A stretch of 64,000 nucleotides of DNA from Paracyclopina nana. Taxonomy: Eukaryota; Arthropoda; Copepoda; Cyclopoida; Cyclopettidae. The first letter of the stretch is position 1. The number at the start of each line of letters is the position of its first letter. Below the pieces are notes generated by a model that was not told where the DNA came from, did no database searches, and saw only the letters and a list, made by a program, of their open reading frames with translations. This document shows, in pieces, positions 6,633 through 57,200 of this stretch. Position numbers and translations under genes: made by a program. The stretch covers positions 5,592,501-5,656,500 of the forward strand of contig JAGUCH010000002.1 of the NCBI GenBank assembly GCA_019096065.1, given 5' to 3'.

Positions 6633-8636
6633 TCAAAATGCATCAGAACGCTTCTGATGATTCTCCAAGGCTGCGATTTCAGCCTTTATTCGATCGATGT
6701 GTGCTTTGGAGGAGTAGTCGACCGGTTCAGCATTGGCAACACTCACTTTGAGTCGGTTCTCATCGTTCCACGTTTCCTTAGAAGTTTTGACTGAAAAATT
6801 GAACTGAGCATATCGTGCTTGTTTCAGCACCCTACGGTATTCCAGTTCGTCTTTGTCTTTGATTTCAGCCATTTCTTTCGCTTCTTTGCCAATGATTTTC
6901 GCTGCAGAGTCGTCAAACATCGTGATCCACTGAAAAATGCAAGTTCAACTAAGTAAATTTGGTGTTTGTGACAAAAAAAGACATCAAACCTGATAACTTG
7001 TTGCATCTGCAACCGCTCCTCGAAGTAAATATCGCCAATGAAACCTGTCATATTCCTGCCTGCATTTTTCACACTTGAATTGACCGTTGCCCATGTCAAT
7101 GACCATTTTGTTGCATTTTTCGCCTGGGCAAGCTTTGTACATAATCTTGTCCGCTTTCAGATCGATGAGGTAGGCGCATATGTTGTAGTAGCGTGTTTGA
7201 GATGTCTCTTGGAATTCGTCATGCATTTCCTTCAGCGTGACAAACTCAGACTTATCCATTAAGGGCTGGTACTGTTTCACTCTGGTCAAGCTCTGAACAC
7301 CAGCGATGCCAGAAGTGGAGAAAAGGTCAGCCAAATCTTTGGCTTCGTTCATATCGGGGTCAACTTCAATTGATGAGCCAAAAGAGCAGCTCAAGGATTT
7401 GCCATTCCAGTCAGTTACCATGACTTGTCGAACTGCAACAACTTTACCCTCAATTGCTTCCTTGCCGTACTTCTCAGCATTCTCACCCCATAGAGTGAGC
7501 TGTATTTCAGCTTTGGAATCATCAGTCACAGTGATTTCTCTCTTTTTCGTCTCCCTTCCACTTCTCAGAGACTGGTTCACACAAGCCTCAACTCGACAGC
7601 AAATTGCCAAAACGTCAATCTTATCCTTGTCGGGAACGTTTTCAATATCTTTGATCTTCACAAAGTTGTACTCAATACTTGGCACTTGGTCATTCTTGTC
7701 TACGCAAGGCTCCATGACCGTGTGGCTCATCAAAGTCAGCTCATAGTTATGATTGGTCTGAAATAAAGATGAGCGTTGACTAAAGAGTCCATGTGCCGCG
7801 TCCTTTGTAGCTATACTTACATGGTTGTATTCAGGTTTTCTGACTGGCTGAATTTTCGCGTTGCTCAAGTAGTACACTTTTCCTTCTTGAACCATCGGCT
7901 CAAATTTTCTTAGGTCTTCGTTGAAACCAGTGACCTTTATCTCCCCAGAGGCATCTTTAAGGACGAAATCGAACACAGATCCTTCCCCTCTTGAATTGTT
8001 CCAAGTTTTGACAGGGCTCTTCTTGGTAACGCGAGCCATAATTGTGTACTTATTCTGGTAGGGGTTCAGATCTTTAATACAGTGAGTGGCTTTCGTAGGG
8101 AACAAATTTCTCCTCGCAAGTTTCGCCTTGCTGTCCTCCTCTTTTTGAGTGTTAGGGCTCTTATCAAGAGGTCTTTTATAGGATAAGGGTGGAGGATCTT
8201 TTGCCGGATTTCCATAGCTTGCAGTAGGAGTCCCAGGAGCTCCTGAGCTAGATGACGAAGCTGACACACTAAAAGCATCCTCAGGAACAGGAATTGGATT
8301 TCCGATGCGGCTGTCTAACTTCTCTTGGATTTTAAATTCTCCAATGATCAGAATTAATCTTCCCTGGACGGTTTTCACGCAATTCTTGGCGCTACGAGCA
8401 ACCAACGTAATGATGGAGAACTCGGGTGGAACCTGGTCTTCATCGTCCAGCAAAATGACGGCTTGCGTAAATCGATGATTGCCATCTGAAATGCAGATTC
8501 TGAACTTGGTTTCGTTGCTGGAAGGAGTGGCAATTCTTCTCGTTCCAATCACTTGAAACGTGCACTTATTTGGCGGTGGAATTTCGCCTTTGCAAATATA
8601 TTGCAAAATCGCGCCTCCTGACAATGGTGGACTCAT
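6633..8636 (-). CDS. RPA1: replication protein A 70-kDa DNA-binding subunit
   Basis: Three exons on the minus strand: 8636-7821, 7757-6991/6990 and 6929-6633, about 626 residues. The chosen Met gives MSPPLSGGAI, which aligns with the family start. Another in-frame Met lies six codons upstream at 8654. Domains in order are the N-terminal protein-interaction OB fold (about 1-110), a Ser/Pro-rich linker, DBD-A (from YQNKYTIMARV), DBD-B and DBD-C. DBD-C holds the C4 zinc ribbon (CPGEKCNKM then CEKC). The last exon forms the C-terminal trimerisation part (WITMFDDSAAKIIG). RPA binds single-stranded DNA during replication and repair. The 63-nt intron at 7758-7820 is a multiple of three with no stop, so an unspliced message would stay in frame. 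Alignment to the family favours removing it. Confidence 0.96.
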
Positions 8637-8715
8637 GTCGCCGCAAAAAGTCACTGCATGCCTGACGTAAATGTCCGTTATTCTGAAAAATCGCCCTTTG
8701 TTTACATGAACGAAT

Positions 8716-9380: not shown

Positions 9381-10025
9381 ATGGAGTTGGCACCGCTACG
9401 GAGCATGGACGAGTTCATCTTGTCCAAATCGAGATTTCAAGTAAGTTTCTTGGAGAGCATATCGTAATTTCAAGCTGTAACGAAACGACTTTTTTAAACC
9501 AGATGCCAAATGTAAATGATGAAGAGCGTTGGTTCAACCGCGTTGTGTACAATTTGATGTACTACCAAACAAACTATTTGCTGTCATCTCTAGTCATCTT
9601 CTCTCTCGTCTTCTTTTATCGGCCTCAAGAAATGTGCGTCGGCGTGCTCCTCATGGTAAATAAGGCCTTTTTAGAAGAAGAACACTTCTTAATGCAATTT
9701 TTAGGGTTTTTCTTTCGCCTTCTCGTTTTTCCTACAAGAAAAGAAGGCACAAGTAAAGCAATTCAAGCGGGAACATCCGATACTGGTCACCTTGATTGCA
9801 ATGTCTGTTGGTTATTACCTGATTTACAAGCTGTCATCAGTAGCAGTGTTTTTGCTTGGAGTTGCCTTACCCATTTTGTTCACTATGCTCCACGCCTCCT
9901 TCAGACTTAGGAATACCATGAACAAGCTGGCTAATGTCACTAATGTTCTGGGCCTCTCCAAACGAACTCCGATGGGAATGATCCTTGAATCCGTTGGCAT
10001 TGAACCAAACTTTAAGTATCAGTAG
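9381..10025 (+). CDS. PRA1 family protein (ARL6IP5/PRAF2-like), membrane trafficking
   Basis: Three exons: 9381-9440, 9503-9655 and 9705-10025, giving about 177 residues. The N-terminus MELAPLRSMDEFILSKSRFQ leads into the conserved RWFNRVVYNLMYYQTNYLL segment. Two hydrophobic hairpins follow (SSLVIFSLVFFY with GVLLMGFSFAFSFFL, and the ILVTLIAM... YKLSSVAVFLLGVALPIL pair), then a short basic tail. This is the architecture of prenylated Rab acceptor proteins of the ER/Golgi, and ARL6IP5/PRAF2 is the closest fit in length and tail. The family modulates Rab delivery, ER shape and glutamate transporter trafficking in mammals. Exon 1 supplies only 20 residues. The downstream Met at the start of exon 2 would truncate a conserved segment, so the upstream start is preferred. 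Confidence 0.9.
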
Positions 10026-10140: not shown

Positions 10141-11334
10141 TTAGCTGTAGCAATTGGCAGAGTTAAGAGCTTTAAAGGATTCAAAGGCTCTTTTGACCAT
10201 GCTCTCCTCAGCAGCTCTGATCCACACCCTTGGGTCATAGTATTTTTATTAGGCTTGTCCTCACCTTCAGGATTTCCAACTTGGGCCTAAAGTAAAAGAA
10301 ATCGTACAATTTGCGGTAATTCACCGAGTAAATTAACTTCATACCTGAAGGTATGCCTCTTTATTCTTATAGAATCCACGGAGGCCGTCCCAGTATGCCC
10401 ATTGAGTGTCAGTGTCAATGTTCATCTTAATCACTCCATTTTTGACAGCAGCTTGAATCTCCTCCTGGGTTGATCCAGAGCCTCCATGCATGACCAAAAG
10501 CTGGCTTTGGGTTGGTGGATCCGATCTTCTTGTGAATGTATGCTTGATGCTCTCCTAGAAGGTGAGGGCTAAGGACAACATTTCCCGCCTTGTATACACC
10601 ATGGACATTGCCAAAAGCAGCTGCAATTGAAAACATGGGTCCAATGGCGCTTAACGCTTCATAGACCTTGTACACTTGCTCAGGCTTGGTGTACAGAGCT
10701 TCAGCTTTGACAGCAGTGTTGTCAACACCATCTTCCTCTCCTCCAGTAATACCAATTTCCATTTCAAGCCACAGCTTCATTGGTGCCATGCGCTTGAAGT
10801 AGTTGGCACAGGTGCTGATATTTTCCTCATCAAACTCTTCTGACAAGTCCAACATGTGGCTTGAGAAGAGAGGCTCTCCATGTTCCTTAAAGTAGGCCTC
10901 GTCGGCCTCAAGCATGCCATCAAACCAAGGAAGGAGTTTCTTAGCACAATGGTCACTATGAATGATGACAGGGACACCGTAGTGCTTAGCCATCAAGCGA
11001 ACATGTTGAGCTCCAGCTACGGAACCAATGACAGCCCCTTGCTGCTTGTCATTCTTGATGCCTTTTCCAGCCATAAAGCACCTCCACCATTGCTAAATTG
11101 GATGATGACAGGAGACTTGATGTCCCTGGCAGCCTCCAAAACTGCATTGATGGTAGATGATGATGTGCAGTTAAAGGCAGGAAGCGCAATCTGCAAAGTA
11201 TTTATGCATTTCAATGCAATTATGACTAATCTAAATATGAGAAACCTTACCTCATGGTCTCTGCAGTATTCCATCAATTTCATTAGGTTGTCTCCAGTGA
11301 CAACACCAGGAGGAACAATATCCATGAGCCCCAT
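10141..11334 (-). pseudogene. class II (zinc-dependent) fructose-bisphosphate aldolase, frameshifted
   Basis: Exons on the minus strand at 11334-11251, 11190-10345 and 10286-10141 cover the whole FbaA-type class IIA family. The landmarks are the PPGVVTGDNL start, INAVLEAARDIKSPVIIQFS, the catalytic/zinc motif HSDHCAKKLLPW, TGGEEDGVDN, FGNVHGVYKAGNV, HGGSGSTQ and NIDTDTQWAYW. All metal and catalytic residues are present. Three single-base indels break the frame: near 11075-11078 (one base short), near 10497 (one extra base) and near 10245-10250 in an A run (one base short). No substitution stop was seen. Animals normally use the unrelated class I enzyme. Class II is typical of bacteria and fungi. 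Spliceosomal introns argue against a bacterial contaminant. A 5' untranslated exon ending near 11649 is possible. It is either a young pseudogene or a functional gene with sequence errors in homopolymers. Confidence 0.85.
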
Positions 11335-17559: not shown

Positions 17560-20500
17560 TCACTGCTTCGCCACAGTTTCAAGAAAGTCCCTTTCAATGA
17601 TAGAGTTGATCAAATCGCTGTTGTCGTTGCTGCTTGTCGTCATAGGTTTTGTAGCCGCTGAAAGCCTAAGCCTTCGTCGTTTCTGGCCTTTTGTCTGCTG
17701 CCGCGTAACGCTGTCGCACACTGCAGCGAAAAAGGGTGCCAGATCATCCAGTGAAAAAATGCTCGTCATCGTCAATTGTGGTTCACCCTCCTTCAGACCC
17801 ATTGGCCGCACTGATCCAGGCTCTGATCTTGATTTATCAAGCAAAAGCTTTGCCACCCTCACAACATATGGAACAAAATCCTAAGAGAAACCTTGATAAC
17901 CGCTTCCAATTCACAGTTAGTTAACCTACTTGATAAAATTGCATTCCATTGGTGCCAGCTGCAGAAGTTGCAGGATCGTTGACATTATTGTTCTCATTCC
18001 CTTCGCTGACGAAAGCCCATTGGTACATCTGGAACTGGGGCAGTTGTTGTGCTGGCAAGGCCAAAGCCAAATCTAGTAGTTTGCAGACTGACAAATACAA
18101 GCTCAACCAAGATGGGCTGTTGTGGGCTGCAAGACCGTTGTAGCCAGCATTCACCACCCATGATGAGTCCAAGGTGGACAGTCTCTTCAAATGTGCACTG
18201 CAAAACACAAAAATAACATGAAGCAACAAAATCCAAACAATATGGCACTCAATGATGACAAGCTAACGAGCAAGGATATAATAAAAGCCATTCTACAGGA
18301 ACAACTAGTTGTTAAAAAATTCTCCCAGTTTATAACATGCATTTTTATAACATGCTTTTTGCACACAGTTTGGAAACGAACACACATATGATATACCTGT
18401 TAGCTTTCCTAGGATCACTGTAGGGACGTGTGAGGAAAAAAGAGAAAAGATACTGTGATATTAACCGTATTTACAGTACACCTGTTATTCTATACGTAGG
18501 ACGATAAGATCATCCATTTTACCTCCATTCTTCACTGTCAGTGGACAGTTCCTGCTCCAGGTAAGAGAAGATTTGAACCATTTCGGTGATGATAAGTGGC
18601 CACAGCGATGTCACGTGTTGTGGTGACATCCTTATCAGAATGACTCGAAAGCACAAGAACACAGCCGATTGAACCGCGGGGGAAGTGGGGATTGTTCGCA
18701 GGCTTTCCGCTAAACGTTCTACAAGCAAAAAAGCCCTCCAGAATTAAAATTATTTCTATTAGCTTTTTAATTGCTGTCGCTCACCTTGAATTTCAGGCAT
18801 TTGCTTTTGATACTGATCTATATCAGAGCAAAAGATGACAAAGGCTAACCTTTTCAGAAGCAAAGCTCGTTGCTCCAACTCAAGATCTTTGCTAGAAAAT
18901 AGACTGAGAGACCCAGATTGCGAGATTGATGCCACTCTTGCCATCAAGTCCTTGAAAGTTGTCTTGTCGTGAGTCATCAAGTTGTCCACGGTTGTTTTCC
19001 AATGCCTTAAACTTGTCAAGTCTATTTGAAAGAAGGCTGGATCGATCAAAAGCTCCATAGCTTGACTTTTCCAGGCTTTTCGAGTGTTTTGATATTCTGA
19101 CAAGGACGCGAGTAACCTTGAGCACGACCGAAAAAAGGCCAGGTTGCTTCTGGAATGATTCTTCAGATATGGAACGACACTGTCCATCACGTTTTTCAGC
19201 AAAGGAACTACTTTTTCCTTTTCGTCTGAGCTGTAGATGATATCCAGGAGAGGTGCCACCAGTTCACCAAGCAGAGACAAAGCTGGAACGGCATATTGCG
19301 TCAATGTTCTTTTACCCGCGTTACTCGAGACATCCGTGGAAGTAGTTGAGGATGCGTCCGAGTTGTCAATCAAGTCAGTTAATTTTGTGCTTGCTTCGTT
19401 AGGATCAACGTCCTCGTCAGCCTCAGCTAGCAGCTCAGACTTCACAGCGTAGTTTCTGCGTAACCAAGTGGTCTGCTCAAGACATGACCCTCCAATCTAT
19501 AGTATAAGATAAGAATCAAATGTTGACGAAAGTGAAATAATAATTGTGTGTACCTGAGCACATGCATCTATCAACTTTCCAGCTAATTCTTGCAGCTCCT
19601 TTTGGTCTTTTCGTTCAGGCATCGTTGGAGCTCGATGAGCAAACTGGTTGAGAATAGCCAAGGCCAAGAAGATAGCTGGGGGAGCCAAGACTAGACACTC
19701 TCTCAATAATCCAGCCAAACCACTCCATAAATCCACAACTTGATTGGAAGAGCATTTTGCCAAATATGCATAAAAGAATTGCAGTACGGCAACCTCAACG
19801 TTGATTCTAGTACCGGACACATGAGGTGGAGACTTAAGAACTTGCCTCACAGTTTGAATCACAGTGGCAACTGGCATGGTTTTGATCGAACCGACCTATA
19901 AAGACAACAGATTTTTCCCCCATCAATTCATTGTTATGGATAAAATGAAGCATGCATGCCATCTACAACAAGCAAAACATATCTGTCTTACCATACTTAA
20001 TAAATTATTTCTAACATCATGAGCGAAAATAGGCTTACCATGTCCACAAGGACGTCTTGGTCCTCGTTGCTAACCGGAAGAGGATTCTTCACAAGGCCAT
20101 GAGCCCCAGGGGATCTCTTCTCTTGCCAAGTGATTCCAATTGCGGACAAGAAGGATACAGAGTGGTGATGAGCGATGGGTGACAACAGGTCTAATAGCCT
20201 CAATCGAACAACTTTGGGTGCTCCCACCAGAACACAGGATTTGTTTTCTTTCGCCTTGGCAATTGCGCTCCACAGAATGGCAGCACAAGATACCAGTCTG
20301 GGCAATGTAGCCAACATCGCCTTCCTCCCGTGCTCGAGAGACGAGGAAGACTCCATAGATGAAGCCACCAAAGCTTTGGCATCGGAATTGGATAGGAACA
20401 CGTGAAGCAAGTTGTTCAAGATTTCTGACTGGCCAGGAACGCTAGAGGCCCCAACCAAGTTTGAGGTTGGCAATGTCATTGTGCTGACCCTGGCGGCGCC

Positions 20501-23500
20501 CGAATCCTCAATCAGGCAAAAGTGATACATCATTGTCATTGCTTCCAACTGGGTGATAACATAGTCTGCCGGTATTTGGCCGAGATCCACTTCTTCAGTA
20601 TCTTCATTATCAAAGTAAAATGGGGCCAATTTTTCCAAATTAGTTGCAAGTTGGCCAGTGACCTCAAACACAGTCTGGGTCAAAGAATGGTCTAAAAATG
20701 GAAGACAACTTGAGACTAGACTCGTCCAATGAGAGTGCAGATGTCGCATTTTGTCCAGCTTGAGGGCAGAGACTATGGCTGCCAGAAACATGGGTTGGTC
20801 TGGAATAACATGCTCGTTCAGGTATCGCAGAACTTTCGAGTTCACATGTGGGGTAGCCTTCTTGCTCGGTGAAGTCATAGAATTGAGCATGACAACTTGC
20901 TCTAGCATAACCAGGGCTAAGAGGAGCTTGAGGATTTGCACTTGGAATGCTTCTGAAAAGTTTGACACTCTCTCGTCTAGGCTTACATGGACTTCATTGA
21001 ATTTGAGGATGTCCTCCGTGAAGCTATTGCTGTCGGCATCCTTCAGGTTTTGCATGTCATGCACACTGGCTATTAAGCTATGGAGGACTACCTTCTGAAC
21101 TTTGCATCTGGAGAAAAGATCACTGATGTAGGTGGCATAAGCCTTGCCATTATCTTTGACAACCAGAATCAGCTCAGAAACAAGAACTATGAGCAGGTCT
21201 ACTGCAGTCAGTTGAACTTCTCTGTTGGCTTGAATGTCATCGCGAGACAAGTGCGGTAGGTTGGGATAGTATGATCGTAGATAGTACAGAGCAGAGGAGA
21301 TCAGGACCTCAATCAAAGTAGAATTGCGATGAGTTGCAAGGTTTTCAGACGTCAACTCTCCCACAAATCCTTTGCCAAAAACTGATTTCCTATGCCTCGC
21401 CAGCAAGATTTGTACTTGGTGGCTCCTCGGCGATGGCTTCGAGTTAAGATTGGTAGATGACAGAGCACAGATTGACAGCCTTGCATTTGACTTTAAAATG
21501 TTTTTGATGCATTCCAAAGTGTACAAGACTTGCCTCGAGTCAGAAACTTGCGTGTATAATAGCAGGTGAGAATGGAGAGGGTGAACTCCTGGCGTGGCTT
21601 TGTCAATAATGCCATCTGAAGTCATAACCACATCAATCACTTCGTCCAAAATCTGCCCGACAATGTCAAAGGCCATGGCTGAATCATTGATTGACACCAT
21701 CGATGACGTATTGGAGCTTGAGGAAGATGTTAAAGCGTACTCCTTGTTGTAGCCTTTAGTGTAGTTGTCGTAGTCAGCCATGTGGGGAGGTACCAGAGCA
21801 AATGGGTTGACTTCGATATTGAGGGCGCCCAGATCACTGATGGCCTTTTTGAAGCCCGCCTTTTTGGTAACTTGCATTTTTTTGCTGTATTGCTCCATGC
21901 TTTTCAATTTATCCACGGTATTGATCACATGAAAGATGACCTCCTTCTCTCTGTCAAAACCAATTGCAAATACCTCGTTTTCGAGGTTGTCTAGGCTGCA
22001 ATGAAGCACACTGACCCGCGCTGTACAAGGATCAAGCAATGTCAAGAACAAAGGCTCCATGATCCGGCCCATGTCACCCCTAGTCATAGCATGAACAAGC
22101 CAAGATTGACTGAGAACTTTCAAGGGCCCTCCGGGCATGTTTAAATTGTCCAGCATTTTCAGTAGGCAAATGTCGAAAGTCCTAGTCTGGTCCCTTGTCA
22201 TCGTTTTCAGCTCCAAATCACGGCTCAGATGCCAAAGCAAAGTAAATCTTTGGTAAGTGTCGACATTGTTGAGGTCTTTGGCAATGATCTTCTCAATAGA
22301 CTTTGGCCTACAAGACAAATTTGAAATTACAGGGTAAAGTGACATATTACGACAAAAAAGTTGCTGAACTACCTTGGTACAATATTATGCAAGTGATGAA
22401 GGAGTCCAACGCACTTCAAGTGATAATTGGCTTTCATGTACCCCAAAGCATCCCATAGCCTTGCAGTCACAACTTGAGCGATTATGGTTTGCTTCAGAAT
22501 GCATCTGTACTGGCCTTCCGTTATCAAGGGCATCATAACAATTACAAAATTTGCCTCGTGCTCATTGGGACGAATCTTGAGATTAGAATCGAGAAGCGAG
22601 ATGATTTCCAGCAAAGTGTTGATGCTTTCGAGCTGGAAATCAGGATAATCTTTGCCATCAATCAGGCATGCCGAAAGTACCAAATGCTTCAGCCAATTGG
22701 GCAGCTCTTGTGGACTGCAGCCATAACTGAGAATTGAAAAATCATCGCTTATGGTGGAATTTGGACTGGTTGATCCCATAGTCGGAATGCTTGATAACTC
22801 CACTAATATTTGGCAACTGAGAGTGAGAGCATTCGTAAACTTATGAACACCTTGTACGAGGCCAATAGACGATTGCTTCAAGTTGTCGATGAGAACTTGA
22901 TCTTCTTCATTAGCCGCAGCTCCATCAGAGTCACTATGTTCGGAGCCTCGCAGTAGATGCTCCAGGTAACGAGTCCTTTCCTCCAATGTGTCATGGGGCC
23001 TCTTTACCATTTTAGCAAGCCATTCATTGGGATCAAATCCAGGCAAAAACGCTCGCGTGGCAAGGAAAGTCACAAAAAAGTCCTCGTATGCCTCAATGCA
23101 ATCCTTCATGAGCAACTCATGAGCTCTCGGCACTTTCTCAAACGACTTGGCAGCATCCACGCCTAATTCCTCGGCGTGATCTTCGTCAGAAGCTGATGGC
23201 GGACTCAATGACTCTGTAGCCTCCTTCCCCATCTCCATGGACGGAATGTTAGACTTGTCTTGGGTGGCATCAACATCCCAAGCATTCCAAGCTGGTTGGA
23301 CTTTGGTCAAAATTTTCTTGGCCAACTTCAAGGCGTGTGTGACCTCAAACGCGGAGAGGTCAGAAACTTTTTCAGTTACTACCAATATAATAGACTTGAA
23401 CAGGCTTGGCAAATGCTCTGAGGCAGTCTCAACATAGGTTTCAATCGACACAATGTCGAGCAGAAAGTCGACGAGCTCACACATTTCAATCACAGTTGTA

Positions 23501-25110
23501 TCTTGACTGCCTACAAAGTTGACAGCATTGGCCTCAGTATCGCTGATACGAAATCGTTGGCATGACGCTTTTTCAAAGGCTTTTCCACAAAACTCCCAAA
23601 TGTAGGAGCTTTCCAAAGTGCCGAAAAGCAAATTGGCCGATTTCATCAGTTCTTGATTGTTGCTTGGCACTTTTTTGTCCTTGATGTCTTCTCCAGTTTT
23701 GTTTCTGCTAGAATGATACAGCGTCCGAAAAACGTCAGTGATGACATGGTCAAGAATTGCCACTCCGACTTCAGGTTTGTCAAGCAAAGTCATGACAAGC
23801 CTGTACGGCTTCAGATCTGGTTGATCTTCGTCACAAACTTCTAAGCTTCTCTGAAGAATCACCTTCAAGGCCTCCACCAGAAGGCTTTTGGAGTAGTGAC
23901 AAAAGTAGACGTTGGTGTCCTCATCGATGGACACTTCGCTGTCATGCCTATGATGGCCCTTGACATTACTTGACTCAGAGCCACAAAGCCAGCTGTACAA
24001 TCTGCGATTGAGGCTCATATCACGTCTTAGCAAAACAGAGGTAGCGGCTGCTACCACTTCGACAAGGTCCTCATGGGAAAATTTGATCACTTCAATATGC
24101 ATGGGAAAAGCTAGCACCAAAAAATCGAGGGCACACCGCTGTACAAGAACTGAGGAGTCCATTAAAGCCGCGCATACAGCCTTGACAATGACCTCAGAAT
24201 CGGATCCAAATAGGTGGACTTGATCACTGATCGGAATTTTGCGGTCAATGTGTCTGAGAACAAAAGATACAGCCGCTAGACGAATAGCTGGGTTGGCTGC
24301 CACGCATTCCCAAAGGCTGCCATAAAAGACTAGAGGCTGAGCAGCATCACAGACCGACTCCAAAAGACTGTTGGTCCTGTCGTAATGATCCGATCCCTCC
24401 TCAAGGCCAAGCAAGACACCTGCTAAGAGGCCATTGAGAGCCGGCCTTAGTCTCTCGCCAAGCGGTACAAAGTGGGTCTCGTACACAGTCAAAAGAGTTG
24501 GTCTGACATTCATTGCCGCATGGCCCAAAAGTGGAAATAGACCAGCGCTGTATAAAAATAGCTCTTGAGCCAGCCGATTCGTGCCCATGGTCTTGAAAAT
24601 GATGTCGTAAGTGTCGAGTGCTTTTAAATGAACCCCCGAGGGCAAAGCAGGATGCATGCATTGTGCCAATCTCTGTAATCCATAACAATGAACTGTCGTT
24701 AAACGTAAATAGAGGTACACATAGCTGTGAACCTAAGTGCCATGATCTTGAATATAAAGTTTTCCGCTAATGCAGTAATTGGATTTGATGGGGAAACCTT
24801 CCAATTTTTTCGGTTGTGTTGGTGAGTCATAATGATAATTACCTTGCTTATTACGATCCTTCTCGGTATGATTGGGTACTTCATATGGGCCAAAAGGACC
24901 TTGTTTAATTTGCCCAAGGCTGCTATTAGGTCTGCCCATTCTGTCGTATACTCAAAAGCCTTCAAAGCTTTGTCAATTTGGGACATGTACCTGTTTATGA
25001 GCCAAACAAGAAATTACTGGAGTACTCATCGAATCAACTGATAAGAAAACTTACGCTCTGTACTTGGCATCGCCGAGAAGCTCATACTCCTCAAGCACAA
25101 TCGAAGTCAT
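17560..25110 (-). CDS. dopey family protein (DOP1/DOPEY), Golgi-endosome trafficking
   Basis: About nine exons on the minus strand, roughly 2,200 residues, with mostly short introns. Exon 1 (25110-25055) starts MTSIVLEEYELLGDAKYRA. Exon 2 (24990-24843) carries the signature IDKALKAFEYTTEWADLIAAL. Exon 3 (24672-22373) continues LAQCMHPALPSGVHLKAL. A second large exon (22307-20039) and four or five small ones follow, including LWPLIITEMVQIFSYLE, and the stop is at 17560-17562. The protein is a large soluble HEAT-like scaffold. Dopey works with MON2 and a lipid flippase in endosome-to-Golgi traffic and links to kinesin-1. No frameshift was seen across more than 6.5 kb of coding sequence. The two longest exons are open throughout, which supports good base quality here. 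Exon positions near 17.9-19.9 kb are read from splice motifs. Confidence 0.95.
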
Positions 25111-28972: not shown

Positions 28973-30392
28973 TTAATGAATCATGTTAGAAAGATCTTGT
29001 AAATGCATAGCAACTTCTATGGGAACTTCAAGTTCTTTGAAAACAACTTCTGCGTCTCTCCAGTCAAGTTCCGTCAATAGATCCTCAGTGTTTAATTCTG
29101 AGGAGCCAAACATGTTGTTCTGCGAATGCTTTTTCAATGCTGTTAGAGCCTGTGAAACCATGTTTGAGGGAATTCCCAAAACATCAAACAGCTTTGAGGC
29201 TTCAGTGCTGACATCAGAGGTCATTTCTTCGTAAATCACTGCATGCTTGTAAATGCTTTTGTGCATCAAATATTCGGCCATCACACTCGCATAACCAATA
29301 GCAGAAATAACCCCCATGCTTGCTGATTTTCGTTGCTTGAAGTATTTTTCGAAAAGAGCCCTGTACTTTGGAGTGTATGGCATCCCCAAGTTTACAAACC
29401 AGAAGTAAGCCAAGTTTGATTTGTCTACTTGGGAGAAAACTTTAGCAAATGAAAGCATAGAAGGCTTGGGAAGCCTGGTTGACAGGATGATTTTGATTTT
29501 TTCTCCAAATAACTCATGGATTGAATGCATCATAGGCGAGCAGAATAAAGGCAGTTTAAGAATGTACCTAAAAATCAACCATTGCTCTTGAAAAAATTAA
29601 ATTATGTTGCTTATGATTAGTTGCCTCTCTGATTGCACTTGCTGTGTTGGCTTGAATTGAATTTTAATGCAAGATCTGATCAACTCTTGGTAATCATCCC
29701 ACGTAACTTTGCCCAAGTTGTACAACTGATGAATGTACAACAATCCCCAGGGCTCTGACATCACTAAAGTGTTAGGAAGCTTGCGAAACATCTGCATCAA
29801 AAGGATCCACTAGACAACGTAAGAAAAAAATTAAGCTTCAATATACCTGGCAAAGCAGGGTAGACCCGCATCTTCCTGTGTTGTTGATTAAAATGCAATT
29901 TCCAGATGGTTTGCCAATTTTGTTAGCTATTTGGTGTAAAGTGGAAATGTTCACCAAGAGGAGTTTGTCTGACGAAAAGAATTGAGCCATGAAAGCGAAT
30001 GGAAACCGACCCAGGCCGTACACGTCAGTTTTGGTTGATACAGAAAACCATGCCTGGTCAGCAGAGACTCCCATTAGAGTAACATTGTCATTGTTGATAA
30101 TAAAGCTTATGGGGTCAACATAAGCTTCATGCCGAAGAATAAAGTGGTGAAGTGTGCAGGTCCCCGCGGGATTTGAAGTACCTCTACCTAATATACGAAC
30201 TAAGTTTCCTGATTTGTCCACTCTTGCTTGAGCTAATTGCTGTTCATGTTTCCATCCATTCACCAAGCTGTAGCCAAATAATGAGCAGCAGATGAAGTCA
30301 ATAGCCATGTACACGCTTCTAATAAGCTTGAAGACCTTGTAGATGTTGTGCAAGCCAACTATTTTGACAATTTTTTCAGCAGTGCCTCCCAT
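28973..30392 (-). CDS. sulfotransferase-like protein, tandem copy A
   Basis: Three exons on the minus strand: 30392-29847, 29791-29625 and 29567-28973, 435 residues. Two PAPS-binding-like motifs are visible: NNTGRCGSTLLCQ (5' phosphosulfate loop) and ILSTRLPKPSMLSFAKV (Arg/Ser 3' phosphate motif). The N-terminus MGGTAEKIVKIVGLHN leads into a moderately hydrophobic stretch (VYMAIDFICCSLFGYSLV) that could anchor it. Otherwise it does not resemble the named cytosolic or Golgi sulfotransferases I can recall. The second intron has a GC donor. The neighbour upstream on the same strand (30422-31881) is a paralogue with the same three-exon layout and identical splice phases, so they arose by tandem duplication. 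The substrate is unknown. Confidence 0.75.
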
Positions 30393-30421
30393 TTTGGTAG
30401 GTTGATATTTATTGAGCTTTG

Positions 30422-31881
30422 TTATCTTATTTTCTCTACTAGGTCAAATAGAGTTGCTGATGTATCAATGGGAATGTTGATAGCATTGAAAATGTTATCT
30501 ATGCTACTCCATTCCTCCTTAGAAACTAGTTCATTATCTGGTTTGACATGAGAATTGTCAAACATTTTGTTTTGGGAATGAGTTGATAGAGCTTTCATGG
30601 AGTTGTCCACATACTCAGTTGGGATATCTAGTGCCCTGAACATATCAAGGGTCTTTTCATGAGCAGATGCTATCATCTCTTCATAGATAATTGATATCTT
30701 GTACATGCGTTTGTTTTCCAGGAATCCAGCAATGCATGCTGCATATGCTACAGCGATAGCTTCTGCGTAAGTCAGCTCCCTTCTTCTGCTGTAGTACTTG
30801 TCAAACAGACCCTGGTGCTTTTGTCCATATGGCATGCCTATTCCACTGAACCAAAAGTCTCCTCTGATATGCAAGGGTTCAGGCTCAAATGATGAAACGA
30901 CTTTGACAAACGACAGAATAGAGGGCTTGGGTTGTCTTGTAGAGAACATGAATTTGATGGCGTTTCCAAAAATATCACTGATAGGCTTCATTGTTGAGGC
31001 ACATAGTAACGGCAACTTTAACACGTACCTTACAAAGAAATAATTTTTTAATCATTGTCATTTATTCTGAGCTCTTGATCTATGAGCTAATGTACCTCTC
31101 TGTTCTTGATTGCATTGTTGGCTTAAATTGGATTTTTGTGCTTGATGCCAGTAGTTTCTTGTATCCTCCCCATGAGATTTTTTTCATGTTGTACATTTGG
31201 TGAAGATACAGCAATGCCCATGGCTCAGACATCACCAATGTGTTGGGCACCCTTTGAAACATCTGGAAAAGTAGGCTTTCTGAAATGCATCAACTGTTTT
31301 AATAGTACAAATTTTGATTTACTTGGCATAGCAATGTAGACCCACATCTTCCTGAGTTGTTCATTATGATGCAATTTCCTTGAAGAGAGTCGCTTAGCTT
31401 GTCAGCAATTCTGTGCAATCCTGCATGGTCAACAATGAGCAATTTTTCTGAAAGCATCAGTTGACCAATGAAAGCAAATGGAAACTTCTGAGAGTCATAC
31501 ACATTCGTGTTGGATGTGACTGAAAACCATGCTTGACATTCATTGATGCCCATGAGAGTCACATTGTCATTGTTGAGCACAAAGTCGATCGATCGGGTCC
31601 ACATAAGCTTCATGCCGAATAATGAAGTTCTGCAGGTTTGTGCTTGCTGCAGGATTTTCAGTTCCTCTACCTAGAACTTTAACTAAATGACCACTCTTGT
31701 CATGGTTTTTCTTAGACAAACGCTCTTCATCCTTCCATCCGTCTACCAAGCTGTATCCAAGCATAGCAGTGCAGATGGTGTCAATTAGCAAGTAACAGTT
31801 GCGAATGGTTGCAAACACCTTGAATATGTTTCGCAAACCGATTTTGAGCACGATTTCTTCTGCTGTTGTTGATGTCCCCAT
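30422..31881 (-). pseudogene. sulfotransferase-like protein, tandem copy B, frame broken by a 4-bp duplication
   Basis: Exons on the minus strand are 31881-31323, 31262-31096 and 31028-30422, in the same order and phases as copy A. It has the matching motifs NNSGRCGSTLLCQ and FSTRQPKPSILSFVKV. The coding frame is interrupted near 31586-31593, where GATCGATC stands where one GATC is expected. Upstream of it the frame reads RHEAYVDPID, and downstream it resumes at DFVLNNDNVTLMG in another frame. Everything else is open, about 442 residues in all when the break is ignored. It may be a very recent pseudogene, a polymorphic allele or an assembly artefact. The intron-2 donor here is an ordinary GT, unlike copy A. 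Only 29 bp separate it from copy A. Confidence 0.65.
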
Positions 31882-32020
31882 TTTGGACGAGCCATAAATC
31901 TACCTGCGTTAAGCTCACACGTTCATCACATATAAGTGTGAAGCCTGGTGAGATGAATATAAAGAGAGGTTTGGAGACTCAATGATCTAGGTACATTTTT
32001 AATCATATATTTCACCAAGA

Positions 32021-41514: not shown

Positions 41515-44500
41515 ATGTCTGCTTCTCAAGCAAAGACTTCTGGTAAATAGATAAAGCATGGTAGAGACAATTTGAGTTATAGATTTTTTAAGTTGCTGAT
41601 AGCCATGATGAGTCACAAGTCAAAGTTGAGGTTGAGAAAATTTCTGAAGATTATCAAGCAGGCATTGAAGGCTCTGGAACTCACCATCATCAACCGGGAA
41701 GTAGCAAATGTGGTGCCAAAAAGGAAAAGGTACTCCAATTTTTACATTTGGCTGATAGTGATGACTTTTGGCGGTTTGGACTGCGAATGGGCTAACAACT
41801 TTTTTCTAGCGTAAACAAAACCGTGCATTTTTTAACCAGCATTTTGTGCACTCGCAACAACTGCGGGTGATTCTTGCTGAAAAGGTCTATTTTGAACGTC
41901 GTTAATAGCATAAAAGGAGGAACACTTGTTCGATCAGTATTCATGCAAAAAAGCTGCTTTATCTGAAAGGCCTTCATCGCATAGGGCAATGATAATCCAG
42001 GATTTCAAGGTGACAAGGGCCATGCCAACCATTTCAAAGTTGAGCCAGAGTGGTTAGAGAGTAAAATCAAGGCTTACTTGTGTACCAAGTGTCAGGTAAT
42101 ACGAATTTCACTTGGGATGCGTTCTCCTGCTCAAATCTCTTTTTCAAGGTTGAAGCTGCCGTCCCCACTGTCCCCATTTTAACCAACGACAGACCCTACT
42201 CGATCGAAGTCTACGACTGCGGAAATGATCATAAGATTGAAGTGCTGAGAGTTCATATTGACCAAAAAGGACCAAGTAGGGTTGAAATGGGCAAGATCAT
42301 CCACACCAACAATAGAGTCCAGCCTCATCAGGAGTCGATTGGGCTTAAATCTACTTCCACCACACCAAAAAAGTACACCACAGAAAAAGAAGAGCCTGAT
42401 GTGATTGAACAGGATGGTGAGCATGAGAGTAGCACCAATGAGTCAATTGAGCACTCTGATGAGCCTGAAAGGCAGCAATGGTCAAACCCCATCGAATTCT
42501 TGCTTTCATGCATCGCAATGAGCGTAGGATTAGGAAGTAAATGCTACCCTTTTTTTTACAAGCGAGTATGTTCATATCCAAATTCGCAGATGTTTGGCGG
42601 TTCCCTTTTACTGCTTATGAGAATGGTGGTGGGGCCTTTCTAATTCCTTATTTGCTAGTACTGTTTTTCATTGGGAGGCCACTCTATTTTTTGGAGCTGT
42701 CTCTAGGCCAATTTTCAAGCAAGAGCAGTGTCAAAGTGTGGGACATGGTTCCCTTCTTCAGAGGTGCATTTATTAATTGCTCTTTTCTGATCCTTTTTGA
42801 AACTGTTTGCTTAGGAATTGGCTACGGTCAAGCAATTGGCACTGCGTCAGTGGTCTCTTATTACACTTGCCTCATAGCTCTGTCAGTTTTCTACTTATTT
42901 GCCTCAATGCAAAGCGTGTTGCCGTGGACAATATGCAATCCTGACATCATTCTGGAGAACACAGTGTGCATTAGCGCAGGTGCAAATGCCACGGAGGTGC
43001 TGATCAATGGATCGTTTGCACCTGACACCCAAGTCATTGGGTCAGCCGAGCAATACTTTTTGCACACTGTCCTCAAGCAAAAAGATGATATTTTCGATGG
43101 AATTGGGCTACCAGATTTGAAGCTTGTTGGCTGCCTAGCTGCTTGCTATGTAGTGCTCTTTCTCACCTTTTGGAAAGGTGTAGCAGGCGCAGGGAAGGTG
43201 GCTTATTTTACGGCCATTTTCCCCTACCTCGTCTTATTTACCCTGCTTGGACGTGGGGTCACTCTGCCAGGGGCTGTCAATGGAATCATGTTTTACATCA
43301 CTCCACAATGGAGCCAATTGCTTAATATAAAGGTATGCACTCTTTGACTGAAATCCAAGCAATCAGCTCATTAAGTTAATGTTTCAGGTATGGTATGCTG
43401 CAGTCACTCAATCGTTTTTCTCCCTGTCTGTGGGATTCGGAGCGTTATTTGCTTACTCCTCGTACAACGGCTTTACTCATAATGTCTACAGAGATGCAAT
43501 TATCATCTCCATTGCTGACACATTTACCTCCCTTTTAGCTGGTATATCCGCTCTTTTCCTGTCACCTTTAAAATTGAATTGTCTGCAGCTAAGATGCTAT
43601 TTTGCATAGGATTCACAATTTTTGCTGTGTTGGGCAATTTGGCGGAAGAGCTGAATGTTCCCATAGAAAAGGTGATCAAAAGTGGGGCAGGCTTGGCCTT
43701 TGTGTCGTACCCTATGGCCATAGCAAAGTTTGACTACGTGCCACAGCTGTTTGCTGTGCTTTTCTTTCTCATGCTCTTCACACTTGGACTTGGCTCATCA
43801 GCAGGGCTCATATCTTCGCTGATAGCCATCATATCTGACACGAAACCCGAATGGAACAAAACCTACGTGGCTGCCATAGTCTGTGTTTCTGGATTTCTCG
43901 TTGGGCTCGTTTATCTCACGCCAGTAAGGCTTTTAAAAGATCTCGAGGTCCCACGTCTGGCATAATTTTCATTGCAGGGAGGACAGCACATATTGAATCT
44001 GGTGGACTTTTATGGCGGGGGCTTCATGATCTTTGTCTTTGCCATTTTGGAAGTGATTGCTATTTCGTGGATTTATGGCCTGTCCAGGGTGATACCCGAT
44101 ATAAAATTCATGCTGGGCATTGAGTTGGGCATTTACTGGAAATTCTGTTGGGGCCTTTTGATTCCAGTTGCGTTGGGATTTTTCTTCTGCTATTCGACTG
44201 CAACTGCAGAGACACTGACTTATGGGGGAGTTGCTTACCCTGACATAGCCATAAGTGATGATTTATAGCTATTTCTCCTTGGCTTTTTAAAAAAATGGTT
44301 TTTTTTTAATTTTAGACGCTGGATTGATTTTGACTGCGGTTGCATTACTTCAGGTGCCATTTTGGGGTATCTACGCAGTCTTCACCTCTCCCAAGAAAAA
44401 TTTCCTTTCCGTAAGTGATCATTTTATCCTAGACGTGAACACGGTAATAAATAATCTATTGAATTGCTATTTACACAGAAAATCAAGTCTGTCTTTAAGC

Positions 44501-51200: not shown

Positions 51201-54200
51201 AAACTCTCCCATCTTGGTCAATTTGAAAGAGCTCTTCATCTAAATACTGAGCACTTGCCATTTTGTACTTGACAACTTTCTCTTCCTCGCCATTTTCCAC
51301 GGTTGCTTCAAGTTGAGTGAAAACCCTACCAACTGGAGTGTTCTCCTTGATGAAGTAGATTGTATCTCTCTTAGCAAAGACTGGAGGCCGGTCAACTCCA
51401 CTCATGATGTACACTTCCACTGGAATGTCAGAATGAAGCTGGAAAGGTCGACCTTTATCTTGAGCCCTCACAAAGAACTGGTACACTTCATTCTCATGGT
51501 TCTTGTTCAAGTTCTTTTTGAGGCTAATCACTCCTGTTTTGGAGTCAATGTCGAACAGGTCCATATGCTTGTCACTACTGCCCTTGTCATTGTAAATCAA
51601 ATACTTGATTTCAGCATTGTGACCCTCATCCAAATCCTCGGCTTGTACCTGGACAACAAGTGAGCCCTTAGTCAAGTTGGAAAAGACATTGGCTTTGTAT
51701 TCCTCCAATTCAAATTGCGGGTGGTTGTCATTGGCATCCGTGATGTGGACAATCATGTTTGTGAATCCTGCTCTACCTCCTGTATCCACAGCCTTGATGG
51801 GGATCTCATAGGTGGCCTTCACTTCTCTGTCAAACATCTGCCTACTCCATACCTCCCCAGTGAGACTGTCAATGCTGAACATTTGCAAGAGGTTGTCACT
51901 TTGGATCAAGTATGTTATGGAGTCACTTCTATCAGCATCTGTGGCTTGCACTTGTCCAACTCGCACTCCTTCAGGCTGACCTTCAGCAAAGTCCACTTCA
52001 AATGTATCCTTAGAGAAAGTTGGAGTGAACGAGTTGGCAGAGACGAGGCCTATTTTCAAAGTTGTCGAAGCAGCAAAAACTCCATCTGACACGGATATAT
52101 TCAATGAGTATGTTGAGCTGTGGTCGAAGCCCCTTAAGTTGGCCAACTTAACAATCCCATCATTTGCATCAATTTTAAAGACATGTTCTTCATTGCCTCC
52201 CGTTATAGAATACACCAAGTGGGAATTTTCATCCGCATCCACAGCACGAACAGAGGCAACAAATTGACCTCTTGAGGCCGTGTCAGACAATCTCACTGCA
52301 TATTCAACATCCTCAAAAACTGGCGCGTTGTCATTGGCATCGAGCACATTCACAGTCACTTCAGCAACCTCGGAAAGAGGCCTCAAGCCTTTATCCAAAG
52401 CCAAAACTTTCATGTGGTGCACTGCCTTTCTCTCTCGGTCCAAATAAGAGCGGAGAGTTATTTCACCAGTGGCTCGGTCAATGTTGAACAAAGACAATTC
52501 AGATGAGTTGGAAGGCCTCACGAGGCTATACTCTACCTCAGAGTTGGGCCCAGGACCATCAGAATCAGTGGTGGTGACCTTGACCACGAAAGAACCTGCA
52601 GGACTGGCCTCGTTGATATCCACAACATGTTGGGACTTTTCAAAAATTGGCTTGCAGTCATTGACATCCACGACCTCGAAAAGGACAACAGCCTCTGTGA
52701 ATCCACCATTAAGGGTGTCTGTGGCTCGTACTCTAAGTTGATGGTGCCGTTTTGACTCGTAATCCAATTTGGCGATGTTGGACATCATGCCCGTGTCGGC
52801 GTCTATGTGGAACAAGTCAGTGGCCTCATTACCGGCCTCAATTGAGAAAATTAACTTATGTGGCTTCCCTGAAAACAAATTGCAATCAGTAATTACATTC
52901 TCAGTGGCTTCGTTGTGGCTTCATTTTTACATGAAGAAAGAATTTGCTTAAACAATTGCATGTGTATATGTGGTAAATTAAAACTTCTCATACAGTATGC
53001 AAGGTTTACGTCATGGGTTCGTTGAGCGCCAAAATCCAAAAAATGAAACGAAGGAAGCTCTGACACATTTCCTTCTTTAGCATTAGTTTTCTTTAGTTTG
53101 CGTGAATTATGTGCATAACCACTTAGCCCTAGAGACAATTTAGCACTTTTATCTTTGAAAACAAATTCAAACTATTCTAACTGTCTGGTTTTTTATTAGT
53201 AGGAAGCAGACTCTTACCAGTGATTTTGTCGACCATGGGACTGTCAGCTTTGACGCTCAAAATAGGGGTGAATAGCTCCACATCCTCTTTCACAGAGGTT
53301 GTGTACAATTGTTGGTCAAAAATGGGTACCGATTCGTCGACTATTTTGATGACCACAACAACTTCAGCACTGTATGGAGGAATGCCCCCATCATATGCAG
53401 CTACAGTCAGGGTGAAGTCATTTCTGTACTCATCAGTCAAGTCTGTCTTCAGAGTGATGAGGCCAGACTTTCGGCCTACCCTGAACAACTCTCCGTTGCC
53501 CTTCACTAGCTGATAGTAAATATCTCCATTTGGCCCAGCGTCAGCGTCAACAGCTCTCACTTTGATCACGGATTCGTCTTTTTTAGACTTTTCTCTTTGG
53601 ACAACCGCAAAGTAGGGAAGGTTGACAAACATTGGAGCATTGTCGTTCATGTCCAAAACATCAATCTCAGTCATGACATGGGCGACTCTTGGGTTGACTC
53701 CTCGACCAGCTTCACTTCGTACCTCTATCACAAGCTCATACTTGTCCTTAACTTCACGATCAAAAGGTTTGCCAGTTGTCTTGAGTGCTCCAGACGTCTC
53801 ACCAATGCTGAATAAGTGCCTGGAGTCATCATCGAGGTTTAGGATGGCGAATCGTAGGTTTTCATTGAGATCAGCCCCAAGTACGGTGACAATGACGAGT
53901 ACATCTGTTTTGGTGGAATTTTCCAAGACAGATGCATAGTACTTGTCTTTGGCAAATGCAAGTCCAGAGTTGTCCGATTTCTCCACATTGATGGTGACAA
54001 GTTTGCGGTCACTGAACTTGCCATCTGTCACAGCCACGTCAAGGTTGTACTGAGAGTGAGCCATCTTTTCACCACCTCGGCCAACTTGGATCAAACCAGA
54101 CTCAGGGATAATTTTAAACACTCCCTCCTCATTGCCCCCAAGAATGGTATATGTCAAGTTCGAGTTGAGGCCTTTATCCATGTCGATGGCCTCCAACTGA

Positions 54201-57200
54201 GTTACGTCAACTCCAGGATAGGTTGGCAGCAAAAGAACAGAGTCAGAACCACGTGCAGTAAATTTGGGTGGAGAATCATTGGCATCGTCCACATCAATAA
54301 CAACTTTAGTCGTGGAGTCGGAGGTGAGTCGTGGTGATCCGCGATCGGAAACGCGAACCTGGAACTCAAACTTGGTCTTTGTCTCGTAATCAAGGCTGGC
54401 AATGGTGCGTAGGGCTCCTGTAGCTTCGTCAATGGCGAAGTAGTTCTTGGCCTCAGCATTCAAGATCTCGTAGGAAAGAAGAGCATTGATCCCGCTATCT
54501 TTGTCAGTGGCTTTCAAGACAAGTGGTTGGTGACCGTTCACCAAAATCAAGCTGCCAACAGAGGCCGTTTCACTGACATGGCCACGAAACGAGGACGACT
54601 CAAAGGTTGGCTTGTTGTCATTGACATCCAAAATGTAAACATTAACAGATGCGAGGGCTTTCTTGCCCAGGGTGTTAGTGGCAGCCACGGAAAAATTGAA
54701 CATGGTCACTCGCTCATAATCCATTGGCCATTGGTTGATGACGTGGCCAGTGCTTGGGTTTATCCTGAACAACCCATCTGGGTGGTTGAGAATTTCGTAG
54801 TAAAGACCACTATTGGCATCTGCTTCAGCATGCAGAATCAGAGATCCCTTGGGAATGTCCTCCTGAATTTCCACAGAAAAGTGAGGCTTGACAAACATGG
54901 GAGTTGAGTCATCTCCAGACGTCAATAGTATGTGCACTGGGATTGTGGCGGACTTTTTATCCTCATAGCTTTGATCAGTTGCTCTTACCATGAGCATAAA
55001 CTCAGTCTGGACATTGTCCAATTCCTTGGCCAAGATCAGTGTGCCCAGCATTGGATCGATGACAAAGGTGTCATCCTTGTTGCCGTGAATTATGGAATAC
55101 CTTATCTCGCCGCTCAAACCATGATCGCCGTCATATGCTTGCACTTGGACCACAGCAGATCCCAAGTCGGCATTGTCAGGTAGCCTGGTCTGGATGATAT
55201 CAGCCATGAATTTGGGTTCATGGTCGTTGTCATCCAACACGTTGACAATCAGCTTAGCAAAGTTTGCATTGCTCACTTTGCTGTTGGTGACATCTTTGAT
55301 AATAATGATAAGCACGTGGCGCCTCATTCGCTCCATGTCCAATTTGTCTCGTAGGGTAACTTGACCAGTGTCTGGATGAATCTTGAATTGCAGTAAGCTG
55401 TGGGGATTTTGGGCAGAATGAAGGCCGAAAGTCACAGTTGAGGAAGAATTGATTTGGACAACCACATGACCTATGGGCTCAATTTCGCTCACGTCAACCT
55501 CGTACACATCTTGCATGAACTTCGGTCTCCGAACCTTGATCTCCATCACATCGACGACCACATTTGCCAAGGTGACAAAAACTCCATCGGTGACACTAAT
55601 GCTAATGTTGTAAGCATTCCTCCTCTCATAGTCCAACGATGAGGCCACAATCAAGCTACCTTGGTCAGGGCTAAGGTAAAAGTCATGTGCCTCATCACCA
55701 TCCGTGATGGAGTAGAACAATTTGTCGCCATCTTTGTCATCAGCAACAATCAAGGCGACAAGATGACCAATGGGATCCGACTCGAAGACTTGAACTCGAA
55801 TGGATTTTTCCAAAATGCGTGGAGGATGAAGGCTTTCATTGAAGCTTGGCCTTGCATGAAGACTCAAGGAAATGCGGCTCAAGCTGGACAATTCCTTTTG
55901 ACCTTTATCATTAGCCTTAATGAGGAGATCGTACGCTTGGTCTGAGTTCATCAAAGGAGATGAGGCGTACACTATTCCAGAATCTGGCGAGATTTGGAAC
56001 AATCCTGGATGGGAAGATTTGATGCTGTACGACAATTGTCCATTCAGACCCGTGTCCCTGTCGTATGCCAAAGGTCGGAATAAAGGCCGCTCTTTGGTGA
56101 GCTCACTCTCATTGAACGTTTCCCATTTGCCAGCCGTCTCAAAGTTGGACTCGAAATCCTCCAGCATATTAGCATCGAGCTCAGTGATGTTGCCACTTGG
56201 ATCATTATCGATGAACAGCGATTGATCGTCATTCTGCAGGTCATTCATCGCCATTTTTGAGGTAAGCAAAGTGATCTTTTGGAACCTGGTCAGAAATTCA
56301 GGCTTATTGTCATTTTCGTCCGTGACACTTACAATGACTCTGGTCGTTGAGTTCAAACTGGGTTGGCCGTTGTCACTGACCAAGATCTCTAGAATATGTT
56401 CAGCTTGAGCTTCTCTGTCAAGCATTCGTGAAGTTGTACTGATGAGACCGGAGGCTTGGTCGATGCTAAACAAGGATTGAGGATTGCCCGATATGATTTC
56501 GAACGTTATTAACTTGTCCAAGGAGTCATCGTCATCCTGAGCTTCAAGCTTGATAACTGGAGTCCAAGGCTTGGTGTTCTCCTTCACATTCGGATTGTAA
56601 ACAGGTAACTCTGTCATTGGAACGTTATCATTAACATCAAGTACGTCAATAAACACATCTAGCCTGGAAGCAAGTGGAACTGCTCCATGATCTTGAGCAA
56701 TCACGGTAAGCCAGTAAGACTTTTGCTCCTCTCTGTCCAAGATGCTCAAAGTCTTGATGTTTCCTTGCTCGTCTATGTAAAAGTCTCCAAGACCATTTCC
56801 ACCTTTGATGCTGTAAGAGATCTTTGCGTCCTCGCTGTCTGGATTTCGCATCGAATCCATATCCTTGGCTGTGACAGTGGTGACAAGACTGCCAATTGGC
56901 ATATTTTCAGGTACTGCGGTTCTCCAATAGAAAGACTCGAACCTTGGCGGATGCTGGTTCTCATTGACATCAATCACCTCGACAAAGACATTGGCAAACG
57001 ATGTCAAAGGAGGAGAGCCTTCGTCTGTGGCCTTGACAGTTAGGTTGTACGATTGCTTCGACTCAAAATCTAGCCTTTTGTTGATCCGGATTGTTCCCGA
57101 GGCCTCATCAATGAAGAACTGGCCGTCTTCGTCATGCTTGAGGCTGAATTTTATCAAGCCACCTTGGTACAGGTCAGGATCTGTGGCCTGAACGCTGCCA

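Follow-up and report, generated by a model that had tools for sequence, protein, structure and literature searches.

Does an animal chromosome carry a working class II fructose-bisphosphate aldolase and, if so, what would such an enzyme do beside the class I aldolase of the same genome, and where did it come from? Class I aldolase in animals and class II in bacteria and fungi is a textbook marker, and class II aldolases are, to our knowledge, deemed safe as drug targets on the ground that animals have none. The excerpted text of a 2025 review (PMC12965863) records class II, to date, from yeast, algae and certain protists among eukaryotes, and otherwise from some bacteria and halophilic archaea. 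An excerpt of PMC9499490 describes krill aldolase as class I and most like that of Penaeus vannamei. Excerpts of PMC1665464 and PMC2064935 describe anaerobic protists as having gained class II type B independently. Among the matches listed for the open literature, we found no animal class II fructose-bisphosphate aldolase in the titles and abstract openings, and the word 'aldolase' is absent from the main text of an HGT compendium (PMC13342648).

The locus lies in a 64,000-nucleotide stretch of Paracyclopina nana DNA (hereafter the window), where a class IIA fructose-bisphosphate aldolase coding sequence runs from 11334 to 10141 on the minus strand in three exons (Table 1). The original prediction had placed the gene correctly at 10141..11334 without naming the strand, and its identification of an FbaA-type class II aldolase was confirmed: a 221-aa piece alone, the longest open piece of this copy, matched the TIGR01520 model (FruBisAldo_II_A) with 322.1 bits (E = 4e-96), which is far above chance and below the model's cut-off of 347.7. 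The predicted introns were equally sound (60 and 58 bases long, each bounded by GT and AG), as was the setting in an animal chromosome among metazoan genes, the neighbours being RPA1-like, PRA1, DOP1/Dopey, SLC6 and cadherin genes. The claim that the protein carries every FbaA motif held in part: all of them are present in the window, but not in one frame, with HSDHCAKK, TGGEEDGVDN and FGNVHGVYKAGNV sharing one open frame and HGGSGSTQ lying in a different one. The motifs are split over frames because of three short deletions.

Table 1 Coordinates of the genes in the window, and of the class I aldolase gene elsewhere in the genome
Feature	Position	Strand	Details
RPA1-like gene, OB domains	6987..8714	-	576-aa open frame; PF16900, PF08646
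PRA1-family gene	9381..10025	+	Start and introns read by eye; PF03208 on 9705-10022
Class IIA aldolase, window copy, exon 3	10141..10286	-	Third frameshifting deletion (-1 near 10247); TAA stop in original frame
Class IIA aldolase, window copy, intron 2	10287..10344	-	58 bases, GT..AG; position equal to that in the C4 copy
Class IIA aldolase, window copy, exon 2	10345..11190	-	846 bases; two frameshifting deletions against C4 (-1 near 11079, -2 near 10498)
Class IIA aldolase, window copy, intron 1	11191..11250	-	60 bases, GT..AG; position equal to that in the C4 copy
Class IIA aldolase, window copy, exon 1	11251..11334	-	28 codons, ATG at 11334; length and frame match C4 exon 1
DOP1/Dopey	within 20000-24732		Pfam
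SLC6 transporter	42541-43344		Pfam
Cadherin, large	53180-57988		14 matched repeats
Class I aldolase gene	C2:12583357-12582071		Four exons; 346 codons, open frame complete

Besides the genes in Table 1, Pfam identified a GFO/IDH/MocA oxidoreductase, a mitochondrial carrier, an amidohydrolase, a trypsin and an FKBP in the window. Two similar tandem genes were read by eye on the minus strand at 28976-31899; the frame at 28976-29596 gave a weak Sulfotransfer_1 match (25.2 bits) and its counterpart at 30425-31051 no Pfam match. A further minus-strand open frame (1066-1476) has an internal repeat, TANCVLRFE...GLSGKFRF, present twice. Elsewhere in the genome there is a perfect mir-276 gene (RF00637, 70.9 bits against an Rfam cut-off of 62), a gene not known outside arthropods; like the TTAGG arrays described next, it marks the genome as that of an arthropod. 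A genome search for the pattern of mir-282, which marks mandibulates, gave no match, by itself a weak hint at a chelicerate, and a search for COX1 likewise found nothing. Noisy TTAGG-type arrays stand at the starts of four of the ten contigs (C2, C5, C6 and C7; L012, L015, L016 and L017), arrays of a GGCCA-type 5-base unit at the start of C1 (L011) and the ends of C2 and C4 (L021 and L022), and runs of N at the starts of C8 and C9 (L018 and L019).

Searching the organism's own genome (10 contigs, 92 Mb in all) with PF01116 returned four matches: the window gene accounts for three of them, in pieces, and the fourth is a further locus on contig C4 (C4:3052173-3053003). This C4 gene is intact, with three exons, 359 codons before the stop and both introns at the same positions as in the window gene. 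The two copies agree at 313 of 352 protein residues (89%) and, in one DNA alignment, at 956 of 1231 bases (78%). Across 356 of the 360 codons (stop included), differences at codon positions 1, 2 and 3 numbered 34, 19 and 152, respectively, corresponding to a dS of 1.53 (near saturation), a dN of 0.072 and a dN/dS of 0.047. Because dN/dS is 0.047 at a dS of 1.5, both copies must have been under selection for a long time and, on the evidence of their sequences, the window and C4 genes are an old duplication with strong purifying selection on the protein. The flanks of the two copies are unlike, since the ~10 kb around the C4 gene gave no second match; these non-matching flanks, together with the dS of 1.5 and the different contigs, reject the alternative of two haplotypes of one gene.

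The C4 protein belongs to class IIA, scoring 577.9 bits against the TIGR01520 equivalog (cut-off 347.7). All 21 of the active-site and metal-site positions that we checked against E. coli FbaA (PDB 1dos and 1b57) hold the identical residue in it, and at one of them the window row reads X. Eight E. coli residues that we take to be metal ligands or catalytic residues (H110, E174, H226, H264, D109, E182, N286 and R331) are all identical in C4 and also in the window copy when its pieces are taken together. Overall, the arthropod protein matches E. coli FbaA at 211 of 351 positions (486 bits); it differs from it in that the arthropod gene has two introns, falls outside the sampled bacterial clade and shares ten signature residues with fungi. 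Near the intact C4 gene, a frame at L005:8225-8701 (-) resembles a peptide precursor in which YLFRTRK-like units recur, and gave no Pfam match.

Relative to this intact copy, the window copy carries three deletions that went unnoticed in the original prediction (-1 near 11079, -2 near 10498 and -1 near 10247). Because they break the reading frame, the window gene as assembled is unable to make the full protein, and the possibility that in this form it is a functional copy is rejected. Given that both copies were long under selection, the break in the window copy is either recent or a product of assembly errors; we see about even odds of a true recent loss and an assembly artefact in what is an old duplicate, long functional and now broken in frame. 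That the three frameshifts are errors of assembly and that both class II genes work is a reading we hold to be only slightly short of an even bet. Several properties of the window copy agree with it. Once the frame is held by the alignment, no stop codon interrupts the copy. At least 95% of the 83 other rows agree at 148 columns; in the window copy 145 of these are readable, and at none of them does it depart on its own: its 12 departures are all common to C4, which itself departs at 14, once on its own and once where the window row reads X. The end branches of the two copies in the 85-row protein tree are almost alike (0.063 and 0.056), and the telomere arrays of the assembly look noisy. Moreover, a long-unconstrained gene that had fixed three indels should, by our reasoning, show more damage. 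Against assembly error, one of the three deletions is of two bases, and the window copy has changed slightly more than C4, keeping the majority residue at 6 of the 39 protein differences between the copies compared to 11 in C4 (22 undecided). Nor does the assembly look generally error-ridden, because the window's other coding frames are long and open, ten of them with Pfam domains and totalling 3645 aa (a weak control, as they were chosen as open frames), and because the frame changes viewed from exon to exon in DOP1 (22.3 and 19.5 kb), SLC6 and RPA1, examples that cover part of the frame changes in the window, are readable as GT..AG introns.

The original prediction also held that animals normally rely on the unrelated class I enzyme. 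It missed that class I is present in this genome as one divergent gene, without the C-terminal tail and with changed phosphate-site residues. PF00274 and a search of the genome with the protein of that gene itself both found a single class I locus, on contig C2 (Table 1). Because PFK and TIM were detected by the same kind of genome search, the search is able to see split glycolytic genes; a canonical class I gene might still be hidden where the genome is unassembled. The best PDB relative of the C2 gene is the aldolase C chain 1xfb, which we take to be human, with 176 of 340 residues identical (52%).

In rabbit numbering, the class I gene keeps D33, R42, D109, K146, R148, E187, K229, S271, G272, G302 and R303 and is changed to A35, A38, Q41, T107, F147, D189 and C300. 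We compared it with 12 class I rows, namely aldolases C and B, two chains presumably from plants, PDB 4d2j and seven plasmid-borne bacterial enzymes. All 12 have S35, S or T at position 38, K107 and W147, while position 41 is variable. The stop of the C2 gene matches residue 342, and the 1xfb chain runs 22 residues further; tails of the bacterial rows are of varied length, so a C-terminal tail is not general to class I. We take S35, S38 and K107 to be ligands of the C6-phosphate, and the tyrosine of the tail (Tyr363) presumably assists fructose-1,6-bisphosphate cleavage. Where canonical animal class I aldolases have S35, S or T at 38, K107 and a tail with tyrosine, the C2 gene has A, A, T and a stop at 342. 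With the presumed C6-phosphate site and the tail changed, and with the C1-phosphate site and Schiff base kept, the class I protein should handle fructose-1,6-bisphosphate badly, but given its open frame and kept residues it may still be a slow fructose-1,6-bisphosphate aldolase. Animal class I aldolases A, B and C (including 1fba, presumably the Drosophila aldolase) catalyse the same glycolytic reaction as the class II enzyme by an unrelated, Schiff-base type of catalysis; this arthropod also has one such class I gene, which differs from theirs in A35, A38, T107 and the missing C-terminal tail. Nested in intron 2 of the class I gene is a tRNA-Val (CAC) gene (L023:2254-2326, minus strand).

Taken together, we favour, with a probability of about 0.55, the reading that a working, fungus-related class IIA enzyme of the zinc type, encoded on C4, is probably the main fructose-1,6-bisphosphate splitter of this animal, with the window copy a broken duplicate and the class I protein a ketose-1-phosphate enzyme or a relic. 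Here zinc use, catalysis, the glycolytic role and the division of labour between the class II and class I enzymes are what we infer from sequence. The C4 enzyme would cleave fructose-1,6-bisphosphate via a divalent metal held by three histidines and one glutamate, a metal site presumably as in E. coli FbaA, and would carry most of the glycolytic aldol cleavage flux. The class I protein, which keeps the Schiff-base lysine and the C1-phosphate site, would serve a ketose-1-phosphate or be a relic, a role made probable by the loss of the presumed C6-phosphate ligands and of the C-terminal tail. How this state arose is a more tentative matter, and we give somewhat less than an even chance to a swap in which the fungal-type class IIA enzyme took over fructose-1,6-bisphosphate cleavage in an arthropod lineage and the ancestral class I enzyme, then freed, lost its C6-phosphate site and tyrosine tail and turned to another ketose-1-phosphate.

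It is conceivable, if rather doubtful, that glycolysis still relies on class I and that class II plays an accessory part in a tissue, in gluconeogenesis or under stress. The complete class I open frame with its Schiff-base lysine would suit such an arrangement, and two aldolases with split roles are described for Bacillus methanolicus in an excerpt of PMC8119897, but the class I gene has substitutions at three residues that all 12 compared enzymes keep, is without the tail and is only 52% identical to aldolase C (176/340). Among other enzymes of this genome, phosphagen kinases that look creatine-kinase-like lie on C8 (about 2.69 Mb) and C3 (about 8.27 Mb) (L029, L030 and L032), and the apparent usual arthropod arginine kinase on C7 (about 6.59 Mb, L031) is a divergent single frame; the phosphagen kinases are possibly another replaced enzyme.

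As to where the class II gene in our favoured reading came from, identity alone does not separate the candidates, with the arthropod protein 62% identical to the best bacteria (among the best 80 of at least 585 relatives) and 61-62% identical to fungi. At least 585 bacterial relatives were found in at least 590 stretches, of which the best 80 were used, that is, sampled by closeness, together with a few plasmid rows. A first tree of 85 rows contained 80 bacterial genome loci (the best of at least 585), E. coli, two fungal PDB chains and the two arthropod copies, and placed the arthropod and fungal rows on one side of a branch, with support of 100/99, opposite the 81 bacterial rows. In a second tree of 74 rows, 18 near-identical bacterial rows were left out and seven plasmid hits added, three of them as an actinobacterial outgroup. 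Support for the arthropod-fungus clade was once more 100/99; the clade stood inside the class IIA set, opposite 70 bacterial rows, in this tree with the actinobacterial outgroup. A program warning applies to this tree, in which long branches meet at the join of Azospirillum-Roseomonas and the outgroup. The fungal rows, two only, are aligned parts of PDB chains and are the sole eukaryotes besides the arthropod copies, and it is with these two rows that both trees give 100/99 to membership in a eukaryotic, fungus-related class IIA lineage.

Signature residues agree with the trees. Ten residues are common to the arthropod and fungal rows (two of each) and occur in at most 5% of the 70 bacterial rows, and the same count for the arthropod rows with each of 11 bacterial pairs was 0; this control is weak, since the other rows include kin of most pairs, and residues shared with kin rows cannot count as rare. 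Neither in the two trees nor by these residues did the arthropod protein take a position inside the bacterial group (represented by the best 80 of at least 585 relatives). The fungal class IIA enzymes (PDB 7rgn, 6lnk and 7yva) include that of Candida albicans (7yva), and 7rgn and 6lnk are presumably from Candida as well. Residues such as F118, D125, D149, W169 and H243 are common to them and the arthropod protein, but the path between the two is long (1.3 changes per column in the 85-row tree), and the arthropod protein differs from the fungi at KMNIDTDTQWAYW and YLQ, where E. coli is closer (the KMNIDTDTQWA and YLQ stretches). Among viral contigs there was one partial match (residues 181-353, 57% identity), and a search with the alignment gave none among 83 stretches; phage records gave 27 matches, all below 60% identity, which were set aside.

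The original prediction had proposed this phylogeny and kept horizontal acquisition and ancient retention both open. With the check run, the protein groups with the two fungal enzymes (100/99) and not within bacteria (81 and 70 bacterial rows), so that the fungal clade leaves transfer from a eukaryote (fungus or protist) or old retention as fitting the grouping, and bacterial transfer as not fitting it. The first two fit alike because the other eukaryotes of the tree are two fungal rows only. We nonetheless consider it unlikely that the gene was retained vertically from the opisthokont ancestor and lost in most animals, rather than transferred from a fungus or protist: the fungal grouping fits descent equally with transfer, and the long path to the fungi (1.3 changes per column) is in keeping with descent, but retention would require many losses in animals, because the excerpt of PMC12965863 gives class II in eukaryotes for just yeast, certain protists and algae.

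Transfer from a bacterium, unlikely as judged on the sampled bacteria, and bacterial contamination, which the original prediction had correctly dismissed, are together very improbable: the equal identity to the best bacteria and fungi and some C-terminal stretches closer to E. coli than to fungi speak for them, and they are rejected by the introns, the chromosomal context, the 100/99 clade with fungi in trees holding the best 80 of at least 585 bacterial relatives and a few plasmid rows, and the lack of signatures common with any of the 11 bacterial pairs, a control weakened by kin among the other rows.

Among known systems, the enzyme is a further member of the known class IIA family in an unexpected host. 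We take the class II aldolase/adducin domain to be a different family, an adducin-type head domain, and not F_bP_aldolase (PF01116). What that domain shares with the enzyme is the wording 'class II aldolase' and, in the excerpted text of PMC12599920, its occurrence in animals. A closer likeness is Blastocladiella emersonii, a lineage that also has an aldolase class unusual for its kingdom but as a mirror image, being a fungus with class I and, according to the excerpt of PMC1550239, with no other fructose-bisphosphate aldolase in its transcripts.

The interest of the locus rests on the intact C4 copy and the altered class I gene together, and not on the window copy alone. That an animal has replaced a core enzyme of glycolysis would, if true, be a rare and testable case, and the displaced class I gene would show which of its parts are no longer needed. 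An animal class II aldolase also bears on the idea that such enzymes are safe drug targets.
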